Shown: positions 20,594 to 58,549 of the stretch, piece after piece
How positions within the stretch are numbered: the first letter of the stretch is position 1
How the letters are laid out: each line of letters starts with the position of its first letter
DNA from: Methanococcus voltae PS
GTDB taxonomy: Archaea; AGJL01; Methanococci; Methanococcales; Methanococcaceae
DNA length: 64,000 nt
Assembly (NCBI RefSeq): GCF_024807035.1
Contig: NZ_JANUCQ010000001.1
Span: 1 to 64,000 of the forward strand
Direction of reading: 5' to 3'
The notes under the pieces: model-generated
Databases searched by the model: none
Seen by the model: only the letters and a program-made list of their open reading frames with translations
What the model was told of the DNA's origin: nothing
Position numbers and translations under genes: made by a program

Positions 20594-20610
20594 TATTAGA
20601 AATTCTAATA
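20594..20610. promoter_or_regulatory. Perfect 8-1-8 palindrome upstream of hmd TATA box
   Basis: TATTAGAA-A-TTCTAATA is an exact inverted repeat with a one-base centre. It ends about five bases before the TATA-like GTATATATATC at 20616-20626, so it overlaps or abuts the BRE position. No T-tract follows, arguing against a terminator for the upstream gene. It is a strong candidate operator or activator site for hmd. Confidence 0.6.
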
Positions 20611-20615
20611 CTAAT

Positions 20616-20682
20616 GTATATATATCTTAATACCCAACAATAAAATATTGTATATTATATATTAGAGAAACCTTTAGAGGTG
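20616..20682 (+). promoter_or_regulatory. hmd promoter and ribosome binding site
   Basis: A TATA-like GTATATATATC (20616-20626) lies ~62-72 bases before the hmd ATG. Transcription would be expected to start near 20650, leaving a ~38-base leader. AGAGGTG at 20676-20682 is the ribosome binding site, five bases from the ATG. Confidence 0.55.
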
Positions 20683-20687
20683 TACTT

Positions 20688-21719
20688 ATGAAAGTAGCAA
20701 TATTAGGTGCAGGATGTTACAGAACACACGCAGCAGCTGGAATTACAAACTTTTCAAGAGCTTCAGAAGTAGCTAAACAAGTAGGAATCCCAGAAATTGC
20801 AATGACACACTCAACAATTTTAATGGGTGCAGAATTATTACATTTAGTTAACGAAATTGATGAAATAGTAATTGCAGACCCTTGCTTTGCAGAAGGAAAT
20901 GAAATGGTAGTTTTAGACAACTTTGACTACGCAAAAGTTATGGAAGCTCATTTGGCAGGAAAAGCTGAAGAAGTTATGCCAGAAATCAGAGACGCAGTTA
21001 AAGCTAAGGCAAAAGAATTACCAAAACCACCTAAAGCTTGTATACACTTTGTAAACCCTGAAAAAGTGGGTTTAAAAGTTACTGCAGACGATAAAGACGC
21101 AGTTAAAGACGCAGATATTGTTATTACATGGTTACCAAAAGGAGGCAGCCAACCTGCAATTATTGAAAAATTCGTAGCAAACATTAAAGAAGGAGCAATT
21201 GTTACACACGCATGTACAATCCCAACCCCTAAATTTGCTAAAATCTTTAAAGACTTAGGTAGAGACGATTTAAACATTATCTCATACCACCCTGGAGCAG
21301 TTCCAGAAATGAAAGGACAAGTATTCATTTCAGAAGGATTCGCAACAGAAGAAGCAGTTGAAAACTTCTTTGAAATTGCAAACACTGCAAGAGGTGTAGC
21401 TTTCAAAATGCCAGCTAATTTAATCAGCCCTGTATGTGACATGGGTTCAGCAGTTACTGCACCAGTTTACGCAGGTATTTTAGCTTACAGAGATGCAGTT
21501 ACCCAAATTTTAGGTGCTCCTGCAGACTTTGCACAAATGATGGCAGATGAAGCTATTACTCAAATATTGGAATTAATGAGAAATGAAGGAATCAAAGGCA
21601 TGGAAGATAAATTAGACCCTAAAGCTTTAACAGGTACTGCAGACAGTATGTGTTTCGGTCCTTTAGCTGATATCTTACCAGCTTCCTTAAAAGTTCTCGA
21701 AAAACACGGAAAACAATAA
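20688..21719 (+). CDS. hmd: H2-forming methylenetetrahydromethanopterin dehydrogenase Hmd ([Fe]-hydrogenase)
   Basis: Hmd reversibly transfers hydride from H2 to methenyl-tetrahydromethanopterin using the iron-guanylylpyridinol cofactor. The 343-residue protein has the Rossmann start VAILGAGCYRTHAA with His14, the iron-ligating Cys176 in THACTIPT and His201 in SYHPGAV. It uses C-ending AAC, GAC and TAC codons far more than its neighbours, as expected for a highly expressed gene. It has its own promoter with an upstream palindrome and a T-rich terminator. hcgA follows, linking enzyme and cofactor synthesis. Confidence 0.98.
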   Translation: MKVAILGAGCYRTHAAAGITNFSRASEVAKQVGIPEIAMTHSTILMGAELLHLVNEIDEIVIADPCFAEGNEMVVLDNFDYAKVMEAHLAGKAEEVMPEIRDAVKAKAKELPKPPKACIHFVNPEKVGLKVTADDKDAVKDADIVITWLPKGGSQPAIIEKFVANIKEGAIVTHACTIPTPKFAKIFKDLGRDDLNIISYHPGAVPEMKGQVFISEGFATEEAVENFFEIANTARGVAFKMPANLISPVCDMGSAVTAPVYAGILAYRDAVTQILGAPADFAQMMADEAITQILELMRNEGIKGMEDKLDPKALTGTADSMCFGPLADILPASLKVLEKHGKQ

Positions 21720-21776: not shown

Positions 21777-21792
21777 TACACGAGGTGTGCAT

Positions 21793-22935
21793 ATGTCACT
21801 TGGTGAAATAAGACATAATTTTCAGCAATTAAAGACAAATGTCTATAATTTAATTTCTGAGAATTTTAATGATATTAACATTACGGATGAAACAAGTTTG
21901 AATAATTATATTATTAAAAATAATTGCAACACTGAAGAATATGAAAAATTACTTCAGAAAAATAAGTTAAACAATAGTATAATTACAAAAGAACAAGCTT
22001 TAGAACTTTTTAATATATCAAAAATATCTGATTATTTGGAATTATTTTCAATTTCTTCACAATTAAGGGACTTGTTTTTTAATTCTATCGAAATAACCTC
22101 TACTATACATATTACAAACATATGTAGTGTTACCCCAAAATGCAAATATTGTGGCTATGCTACGGGGACTTCAACAGAGGGTTATGTAAAACCTTTTAAG
22201 ACTTCTGATGACATGATACAGAAATCCGCCAAAGCAATAGAATCTTCAGGAATTAAGCGAGTAAGCTGTTCTTCAGGTCATGGATATGATGGTTCAGAAG
22301 TTTTAAGAGCTTTACAAAATGTTAAAAAAGTTTCTAACTTAAAAGTTTTAGTTAATGCAGGTGCTGATTTAACCGATAACTGTATAAAACATTTAAAAAA
22401 TAATAATGTAGATACAATATGTTGTAATCTAGAAAGTATCAATGAAGAAGTGTTTAATTCTGTGAAACCCGGTGAAAACTTACAAAATAGGATAAAAGTA
22501 TGTAAAAATATATTAAAACACGATGTTGAACTTTCTTCAGGACTTTTAATCGGACTTGGCGAATCTTACGAAGATAGGGTTAAACATTTAGATTTTTTAA
22601 AAAAAATGGATGTAAAAGAGATTCCAATAATGGGTTTCAATCCTTATAAAAACACACCTATGGAGCATCATCCAAAATGTTCTGCTTTAGAGCAGGCAAA
22701 AACCATCGCAATAACAAGATTGATGTTTCCAAATATTAGAATAACTTCGCCTACGCCAACTATCGGGGCAGAATTGATGCAATACGCGTTAATGGCTGGA
22801 GCAAGTAATGTGGCTACTGTAATTCCAGAAAATCACCCAATGAATATTGTAGGCGTGGGAAGTCCAAAAACCGGTAATTTAAATAATGTAGTTAAAATGA
22901 TTGAAGAAATTGGCTTAATTCCAGATATTTGTTAA
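21793..22935 (+). CDS. hcgA: Radical SAM protein HcgA (FeGP cofactor synthesis)
   Basis: HcgA (HmdB) is a radical SAM enzyme required for making the guanylylpyridinol cofactor of Hmd. The 380-residue protein resembles BioB/HydE. Its cluster motif has the Hcg-type spacing C-x5-C-x2-C (CSVTPKCKYC) instead of the usual CxxxCxxC. SSGHGYDG and GLLIGLGESYEDR segments of the barrel follow. GAGGTG lies five bases before the ATG at 21793. A GTG two codons upstream is part of that site. It follows hmd after 73 bases. Confidence 0.92.
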   Translation: MSLGEIRHNFQQLKTNVYNLISENFNDINITDETSLNNYIIKNNCNTEEYEKLLQKNKLNNSIITKEQALELFNISKISDYLELFSISSQLRDLFFNSIEITSTIHITNICSVTPKCKYCGYATGTSTEGYVKPFKTSDDMIQKSAKAIESSGIKRVSCSSGHGYDGSEVLRALQNVKKVSNLKVLVNAGADLTDNCIKHLKNNNVDTICCNLESINEEVFNSVKPGENLQNRIKVCKNILKHDVELSSGLLIGLGESYEDRVKHLDFLKKMDVKEIPIMGFNPYKNTPMEHHPKCSALEQAKTIAITRLMFPNIRITSPTPTIGAELMQYALMAGASNVATVIPENHPMNIVGVGSPKTGNLNNVVKMIEEIGLIPDIC

Positions 22936-23090: not shown

Positions 23091-24626
23091 ATGCTGGAAT
23101 TAATTAAAGAATCAGTAAATAATCCAATGGCTGCATTGGAATTGAAAGGAATTATTAATAAGAAATTAATTACTAGTAAATTAAAAGAATCTGATATTAT
23201 TGAAATAGTAGATACATTAGGAAATTTTGAACTCGATGAATTATATAAATTGGGGAATAATTTTAGAAAATTTCCGATGGGTTGTGATTTAGTAGAATTG
23301 GGCGTAGGTCCTTGTTCTTCTACATTAGATTTACGAGAATTCTTAGAAAATTGTACTTTAACCGACCATATGGGATTCCCCATTCACTTGTGTGCTTATG
23401 CAATAGCAGATATTGCAGAAAAAGAGAATATGACTCCCTTTGAAGTAATGGACAAAATATATAATTTAGTCGATGTGCCTCTTGATTTAGACCATTTTGG
23501 GGAAAATGGACCTATGCGATTTCCAAAAGAGATAACACATTGTATGGGGGAATGTTATAACCAAGGTCCTCCATATAAAGGTTGTCCAAAAGACAGAATA
23601 CATAAGCGTCTTTTAGATAAAGAGCAAAAATATGCTTACGAATTCGAAGATTGGATAAAAAAATCTTCCACAGTCTGTGTAAATGTGGTAAAAGAACAAG
23701 GTGGCGAAGAACATAGTGCATCTATTGACGAAATGGAAAAAGTAGTTAGTGCTTCAAAAAAATTTGGAAAAGGTATAGAGGGTATTTTCCACATTGGCGA
23801 TGGCTATGATGACTTAATAACGGGATTAACAGCATGTAATGATTTGGATGTGGATGTTTTCGTGGTTGAAGGTGGTCCTTTTAATCGTTCAAATGATAGG
23901 TTAAAAGATTTTGCCAAATCAATAGTTGCTTCCCGTATATTGGTGAAAGGAGGCGTTGTAGCCACAAATGGAGCTTACGAAGATGAATGTAGAGTTGGTC
24001 TAAGAAGTGGATTAAATGTTATATTAACTGGTTTTGTGGGTAATCACCACGGTTATATGTGTGGCTATAAGCCAGGAACTGCAAAAAGAACTAATTTTGG
24101 ACTTCCAAGAGTTTTAAGTATCGTAAAAGAAGAGTTGGCTAATTTAAATATATGTTTAGCAACTAAAAACCAATTGGAGGCAATATCCAAAGGTAACAAG
24201 TTTTTAACATATAATAATAAATCATATATTTACCCTGAGACTGTAGGTAACTACTTTATGGGGGATGCACACTTTACAACAGTTAAAGACAGTAATTTGG
24301 GTAGAAAACCTTATTTCGGTAAAAATTTAAATTCATTGGAAGAAGAGCTTGGAAATTATGATAAATTAGGTTTATTGGGTGCAAGATACATTTCATGGGG
24401 AATTGCTAACAATTTAAAGCCTGAAGAAGTTTATATTAGTGATGTGGACCCTTGGGTAGAAAAAGCAACTATAAAAATTTTAAATGATAATGGTATCAAT
24501 GCTTACGCTTGCAATGGACGTGATAAGGAAGTTATTAAAAATGCGGATAAGTCTGTAATTACTACAATGATACCTGAAATAATGATAAGAATAATGAAAA
24601 AAACAAATGCAATTAATCTATTCTAA
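23091..24626 (+). CDS. hcgG: HcgG-like protein (FeGP cofactor synthesis)
   Basis: This 511-residue protein is Cys-rich in its N-terminal half (MGCDLVELGVGPC, THCMGEC and YKGCPKD). It has a Rossmann-like C-terminal part, where GLLGARYISWGIA and EEVYISDVDPW resemble a nucleotide or SAM site. I recognise it as HcgG, a conserved hmd-co-occurring gene, mainly from this pattern and its place after hmd-hcgA. The chemical step is not established. Other hcg genes (B-F) are not in the window. GGGGTTATAAA precedes the ATG. The 155-base gap to hcgA leaves room for its own promoter. Confidence 0.72.
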   Translation: MLELIKESVNNPMAALELKGIINKKLITSKLKESDIIEIVDTLGNFELDELYKLGNNFRKFPMGCDLVELGVGPCSSTLDLREFLENCTLTDHMGFPIHLCAYAIADIAEKENMTPFEVMDKIYNLVDVPLDLDHFGENGPMRFPKEITHCMGECYNQGPPYKGCPKDRIHKRLLDKEQKYAYEFEDWIKKSSTVCVNVVKEQGGEEHSASIDEMEKVVSASKKFGKGIEGIFHIGDGYDDLITGLTACNDLDVDVFVVEGGPFNRSNDRLKDFAKSIVASRILVKGGVVATNGAYEDECRVGLRSGLNVILTGFVGNHHGYMCGYKPGTAKRTNFGLPRVLSIVKEELANLNICLATKNQLEAISKGNKFLTYNNKSYIYPETVGNYFMGDAHFTTVKDSNLGRKPYFGKNLNSLEEELGNYDKLGLLGARYISWGIANNLKPEEVYISDVDPWVEKATIKILNDNGINAYACNGRDKEVIKNADKSVITTMIPEIMIRIMKKTNAINLF

Positions 24627-45468: not shown

Positions 45469-45494
45469 ATATATATATATATATATATATATAT
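45469..45494. repeat. (AT)13 dinucleotide run
   Basis: Twenty-six bases of uninterrupted AT lie between the convergent Fe-S protein gene and larC, touching the larC stop. Such runs are prone to slippage. The run can also extrude as a cruciform. Confidence 0.9.
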
Positions 45495-55134: not shown

Positions 55135-55461
55135 AATATCACTATCGCTATTCGCCATCATTATTATTTTAATTAAATGATTTTAATATGTCTTTTAGTA
55201 TAATTTGAATTTTCATAATTGTTTAAATATATATTATATTATAATATTCTATATGCTAATTAATTCAATATTCAAGATATTATATTAAACTAATAATACA
55301 TATTAAAAAAACTAATATATATAATTAATCTAAATATACGTCCTACCAAATAAATAAGTTAATACCTTGAACGTTAATATTGTATTTATTAATCATATTT
55401 GTAATAGCTTTTGGAATAATGTATCATTTATTAAAGATTTAAATTAGTTGAGGAGATTTTA
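55135..55461. other. LysR / PLP-protein divergent control region
   Basis: About 325 AT-rich bases separate the divergent LysR and PLP-fold genes, which is where a LysR operator would be expected. I could not find a convincing T-N11-A palindrome that stands out from the background. No gene was seen. Confidence 0.4.
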
Positions 55462-58016: not shown

Positions 58017-58549
58017 CTATTACTAAATTGTTACTAATTTGACAACATTATCTATAAAAATTTAAACATTATTCAATGTTGAAACAATATCTATACTAAA
58101 TATTTACAAAGGGTCGTATTACTAAATAAACTAATATATAGTTGTATTGTTTATTATATATAAATATAACCTACTTAAAAGAACTAAATATTAGATTTAT
58201 TAATGGGCAATATTTATAACATATATCGAAAGTAATATATAGTATAAATGTTGACCAGCAATCATTTATATAGTATTAATATAAAATTATTTTAAAATGT
58301 CTATTTTTTAAATAGTAAGACTTAAGACCATATTTAATAATTTAATAACATTTAATGGTTATAAAATATAATTATCCTTTATTTACTGGATAAAAAGCAT
58401 AATAAATCTATATATGCAGTTAGTTTTTATCACGTTTACTTATTTAGTAATAATTAATATTAAAAAAATTAAAATATGTATTATTGAAATTGTAAAAAAA
58501 TCTAAAAAAATTAAATCAAAGTTAAAAATAAATTAATTACGGGGGCTAT
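58017..58549. other. Long intergenic region, no gene found
   Basis: Over 500 bases between the EarA-like gene and the 3' end of the 904-residue secreted protein gene. It has a short hairpin AACATT-ATTC-AATGTT (58065-58080), near-repeats TTACTAAATTG/TTACTAATTTG (58019-58040), and T-rich minus-strand sequence near 58493-58530 that could end the upstream gene. No coding frame with a binding site was found. Confidence 0.5.
58493..58530 (-). terminator. U-rich terminator of the 904-residue protein gene
   Basis: Plus-strand A runs (seven A's twice, then AAAAATAAA) read as T runs on the minus strand, ~20-55 bases beyond the stop codon. There is no clear hairpin. Confidence 0.4.

Follow-up and report, generated by a model that had tools for sequence, protein, structure and literature searches.

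The hmd gene of Methanococcus voltae PS, coding for the [Fe]-hydrogenase (H2-forming methylene-H4MPT dehydrogenase), lies at positions 20688-21719 (+ strand; TIGR01723, 588 bits, cut-off 341) of the 64,000-nucleotide stretch that was analysed as a whole, hereafter the window. It is followed on the same strand by hmdB/hcgA, which encodes a radical SAM cofactor maturase (21787-22935; TIGR03957), and by the cofactor biosynthesis gene hmdC/hcgG (23091-24626; TIGR03958). No operator is seen in the 67-bp gap between hmd and hmdB/hcgA, and the latter gene probably shares the hmd transcript, to which hmdC/hcgG possibly belongs as well. An hmdII paralogue was not found in this genome and its two nearest relatives (G005 and G006) and is present in genomes G002-G004.

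Between the stop codon of a cyclase-like gene (20579) and the hmd ATG (20688) lies the 17-bp palindrome TATTAGAAATTCTAATA (20594-20610, no strand assigned), for which the preliminary description had given eight exact pairs around a central A and a position beside the BRE/TATA of the hydrogenase gene. Both statements hold: the arms read TATTAGAA-A-TTCTAATA, the TATA box TATATATAT recognised from the sequence occupies 20617-20625 (+), with the BRE position at 20611-20616 between palindrome and TATA, and the downstream ORF is hmd by TIGR01723. Inside the palindrome lies the 15-bp core ATTAG-N5-CTAAT (20595-20609, likewise unstranded), which the TATA box follows at a distance of 7 bp. A scan of the window with Rfam and for tRNAs found nothing; elsewhere in the window, an intergenic run of alternating AT occupies 45469-45493.

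Taken by itself the palindrome is not exceptional, and the case rests on comparison. TATTAGAAATTCTAATA occurs exactly once in the 1.78 Mb genome, yet perfect palindromes of this build (arms of 8 bp, gap of 1 bp) occur seven times in the window versus 4.6 times in shuffles, and 289 of 20,000 shuffles (1.4%) of the 108-bp hmd intergenic region contain one. A genome-wide search allowing up to three mismatches gave 201 matches versus 210 in the reversed control, thus no excess. Exact ATTAG-N5-CTAAT is clearly above the control in some genomes only (8 vs 1 in G004, 11 vs 3 in G021) and is not enriched in most, this genome included (11 vs 10). An identical 15-mer at C1:635796 of the same genome sits where two genes converge and was put down to chance. 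What argues for a non-chance origin of the palindrome at hmd is that it is conserved, keeps a fixed distance to the TATA box and recurs at other selenium-linked promoters.

The comparison with other Methanococcus strains suggested in the preliminary description was made on the upstream regions of 21 hmd genes of the family. The palindrome and the block through the TATA box are identical in the two nearest relatives, and the roughly 20 bp to the left of the palindrome have diverged. In the maripaludis-like genomes G001, G002 and G003, a 15-mer of the form ATTAR-N5-YTAAT (ATTAAATAATCTAAT or ATTAGATAAGTTAAT) precedes TTTATATA by 8 bp at hmd, and the DNA further upstream is unrelated, so that the site travels with the hmd promoter. 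In another genus, G019 carries ATTAGAATATTTAAT 8 bp before TTATATAA at hmd. The distance between operator and TATA box is thus 7-8 bp throughout the Methanococcus hmd promoters and in G019. The best site score upstream of hmd was reached in 0 of 2000 shuffles for this genome, G005, G006 and G003, in one of 2000 for G001 and G019, and in 16 of 2000 for G002, where support is weaker. The seventh Methanococcus genome, G004, holds a weak remnant at hmd only, and in most genomes of the Methanothermococcus/Methanocaldococcus type hrsM (see below) is present and a comparable hmd site was not found. Judged by sequence, the hmd site belongs to Methanococcus and one neighbouring genus, not to the whole family.

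A candidate for the protein that would bind this site has its gene 34 kb away, still within the window. The gene hrsM (P0002; 54244-55161, - strand) specifies a selenium metabolism-associated LysR-type regulator (NF040786 LysR_Sec_metab, 257 bits, cut-off 250), and the archaeal members of this subfamily have been equated with HrsM (PMC5322559). Orthologues are present in 20 of the 22 family genomes, with a DNA-binding domain 74-100% identical to that of the window's protein; in this domain, HrsM and the second LysR protein of the genus have little in common. The gene beside hrsM (P0003) was considered as selD, and no Pfam or NCBIfam family matched it. LysR-type regulators use T-N11-A dyads, and ATTAGAAATTCTAAT at 20595-20609 is a 15-bp dyad of exactly this form.

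The promoter of hrsM itself contains ATTAGTTTTTTTAAT (hrsM strand; 55302-55316, unstranded), a proposed autoregulatory operator that abuts the hrsM TATA box (55316-55323). The pattern TATATTAGTTTTT[C/T]TAAT is found in 12 of 20 hrsM promoters from four genera; the other eight upstream regions, all from genus g2, lack the site. The most widely shared 15-mer of the hrsM promoters, found de novo, overlaps ATTAGTTTTT[C/T]TAAT, and with a matrix built from the hrsM promoters alone, central bases ignored, the hmd palindrome outranks every other 15-mer of the window. The same first rank was obtained with a matrix from the non-hmd regulon sites.

The second line of comparison comes from the frc-vhc region, where HrsM has been reported to bind the stretch between frc and vhc and so to repress the Cys isogenes, i.e., those of the selenium-free hydrogenases (PMC11097638). 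In six of six Methanococcus genomes with both operons, two ATTAG-N5-CTAAT-like sites exactly 21 bp apart lie just before the vhcD start, between the TATA box and the start codon. In this genome, G005 and G006, the site beside the start codon matches 10/10, and in G001, G003 and G004 the vhc sites deviate by one or two bases (degenerate in G004). A spacing of 21 bp is as expected for a LysR tetramer. At hmd, inspection by eye at 21 and 27 bp from the palindrome revealed no further site, only weak half-site resemblances.

Similar sites stand at further promoters. TusA/YedF-like genes (TusA PF01206; best NCBIfam match selenium_YedF, below cut-off) carry the operator upstream of TTTATATA in the geometry of hmd in most family genomes, and a further copy frequently lies some 70-100 bp away, close to the start codon. 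YedE-like half transporter genes (best match seleno_YedE, below cut-off) show two sites in a comparable arrangement, and in Methanococcus the genes for the double-cubane reductase (NF040772, over cut-off) have sites around the TATA box. Several of these members came from searches with a pattern that derives from the hmd palindrome, and the TusA/YedF-like, YedE-like and double-cubane genes therefore extend the case without being independent proof; the evidence from hrsM and frc-vhc alone is independent of the palindrome. At the selenium hydrogenase (fru/vhu) and other NiFe hydrogenase loci, neither a 10/10 site nor a conserved site was found. Tus transcripts, possibly those of the TusA/YedF-like gene, rise on selenium depletion (PMC11097638).

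A number of additional matches were recorded. At the double-cubane loci L237, L238, L239, L240, L061 and L081, HrsM-like sites lie just upstream of the TATA box, and four of the loci read have a second site about 80 bp downstream. A xylose-isomerase-like TIM-barrel gene is preceded by an HrsM-like site before the TATA box in G000 (the window's genome), G001, G002 and G003 (L241:908, L246:729, L078:1522 and L242:811). A ZIP-family metal transporter gene (Pfam) of G000 has a perfect ATTAGATTATCTAAT upstream (L063:1666), and the same sequence occurs in G005 (L072:1592) before an ORF of similar placement and length. Further matches lie near an asparagine-synthase-like gene, an MFS transporter and CBS proteins. 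Within the window, 58121-58218 holds two operator-like sites, ACTAAATAAACTAAT and ATTAGATTTATTAAT; the latter (58190-58204, +) stands 8 bp before a TATA-like TTTATA, an arrangement also present in G005 (C1:452521), and is followed by no sizeable gene on that strand, with a small ORF and a methyltransferase gene on the other.

On the physiological side, selenium depletion of M. maripaludis raises the mRNA of hmd, hcgA and hcgG by 5.2, 4.2 and 3.9 log2 units, respectively, with no direct mechanism given for hmd (PMC11097638). In the literature searched, this response had been seen before and was accounted for solely by compensation for the loss of F420 reduction. Under H2 limitation the Hmd protein of M. 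maripaludis falls (PMC2723118), but, according to that paper, hmd mRNA was unchanged in an earlier transcriptome. These data bear on the preliminary description, which had suggested regulation of hmd through the palindrome in response to H2 or metal supply. The operator idea gains support from the conservation, the distance to the TATA box and the LysR-type form of the site. H2 and metals are not the inputs to which these data point, since the site marks selenium-regulated or selenium-linked promoters together with hrsM, and in M. maripaludis hmd mRNA showed no change on H2 limitation and climbs by 5.2 log2 units on selenium depletion. The remark that no operator of this form had been described agrees with our literature search, which turned up neither an hmd operator nor an HrsM consensus nor any statement linking HrsM to hmd, the primary HrsM papers (2004, 2018) being outside its reach.

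From our point of view, the palindrome is quite probably an operator through which HrsM controls hmd, repressing it at ample selenium. We infer from sequence the binding of HrsM at hmd, the sign of its effect and the transfer to this species. In such a model, HrsM would recognise ATTAG-N5-CTAAT as a T-N11-A site and, at ample selenium, possibly together with selenophosphate as suggested in published work, would sit just upstream of BRE/TATA, where it could hinder TBP/TFB, so that hmd would stay low and the selenium hydrogenases would be used. With selenium scarce, HrsM would change or leave, and hmd, with hcgA/hcgG downstream of it, and the selenium-free Frc/Vhc hydrogenases would be switched on at the same time. 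Several observations count against this reading: G001 keeps the sites and has no HrsM, most hrsM-bearing genomes of the other genera show no comparable hmd site and G004 a weak one, no second site was seen at hmd, and the exact motif is not enriched in most genomes.

It can also be imagined that the site is a genuine HrsM operator of opposite sign, with HrsM upstream of the BRE recruiting TBP/TFB at low selenium. We infer repression as the simplest model and regard such activation on selenium depletion as its main rival, though an unlikely one; this estimate concerns the sign alone, the identification of HrsM being common to both readings. The position just upstream of BRE/TATA, at hmd as well as at the TusA-like genes, would suit an activator, and an hrsM mutant with reduced expression of both isogene sets, cited in PMC5322559, points the same way. 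However, PMC11097638 describes HrsM as a repressor of the Cys isogenes via frc-vhc, and the hrsM site abutting its own TATA box and the vhc sites between TATA and start both fit repression. Less probable still is an operator of a different regulator, an H2-, nickel- or growth-rate-responsive or other dimeric protein that shares the HrsM half-site. The drop of Hmd protein on H2 limitation (PMC2723118) would be in line with it, but the mRNA did not change according to the same paper, the same 15-mer recurs at selenium-linked promoters and at hrsM itself, and the other LysR protein of the genus is hardly like HrsM in its DNA-binding domain.

Such a different regulator also finds an argument in G001, which is without HrsM, has one other LysR protein only, and retains the sites of hmd, of vhc, of the TusA-like gene and of the reductase gene, so that the site does not vanish with the regulator. 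From this genome hmdII and Fru/Vhu-type large subunits are missing as well, and Frc/Vhc and PSTK have been kept. Since hmdII and the Fru/Vhu-type genes lie near hrsM in G003, one recent deletion of a selenium-hydrogenase cluster including hrsM is a plausible explanation for the joint loss; alternatively, a second protein may use the sites in G001. Least of all do we favour a chance palindrome, or an RNA hairpin or terminator of the upstream cyclase gene, kept merely through close kinship, a reading that we consider very improbable. Palindromes of this size are indeed common in AT-rich DNA here, this one lies 15 bp past the upstream stop codon, and a 25-nt piece is more stable when folded than the majority of its shuffles (z -3.6). 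Its energy is just -3.4 kcal/mol, however, and that of 61 nt is -4.6 (z -1.0), a folding too weak for us to retain a hairpin or terminator; moreover, the maripaludis-like genomes keep the distance from site to TATA box behind unrelated upstream DNA, and the palindrome matches the motif of the hrsM promoters.

If HrsM does act directly on hmd, the gene would belong to the switch by which selenocysteine-containing hydrogenases are exchanged for their cysteine counterparts. A consensus open to testing would become available for HrsM, which is among the few archaeal LysR regulators whose signal is known, and the shared site would name further candidate selenium genes. More tentatively, and with somewhat less than even confidence, one could speculate that HrsM governs a regulon throughout the Methanococcales by way of a single operator consensus. 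Many of its promoters would have two operators, one on either side of the transcription start, and in the lineage that has lost HrsM the operators would persist, perhaps in the service of another protein. One operator would then lie just before BRE/TATA and the other near the start codon, 70-100 bp apart, and such a regulon would tie selenium status to the [Fe]-hydrogenase, Frc/Vhc, the YedE-like transporter, the TusA/YedF-like protein and the double-cubane reductase.

Among known systems, LysR-type sites in general share the 15-bp T-N11-A dyad with the one at hmd and find a parallel in the tandem vhc copies two helical turns apart; they differ from the hmd site in that hmd offers an archaeal BRE/TATA context, a perfect 17-bp symmetry and no visible second site. 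The NrpR operators of Methanococcus (GGAA-N6-TTCC, as cited in PMC2723118) are likewise short palindromic promoter operators; their consensus is not matched by the hmd palindrome, and they serve nitrogen regulation, unlike the selenium role proposed here. A further close counterpart is the HrsM operator or operators of frc-vhc in M. voltae and M. maripaludis, a likeness judged by the motif described here. There, a pair of sites spaced by 21 bp is located between TATA box and start, whereas hmd has a single perfect palindrome upstream of BRE/TATA; both share the 15-bp ATTAG-N5-CTAAT core, the presence of hrsM and, as we propose, the same selenium switch.
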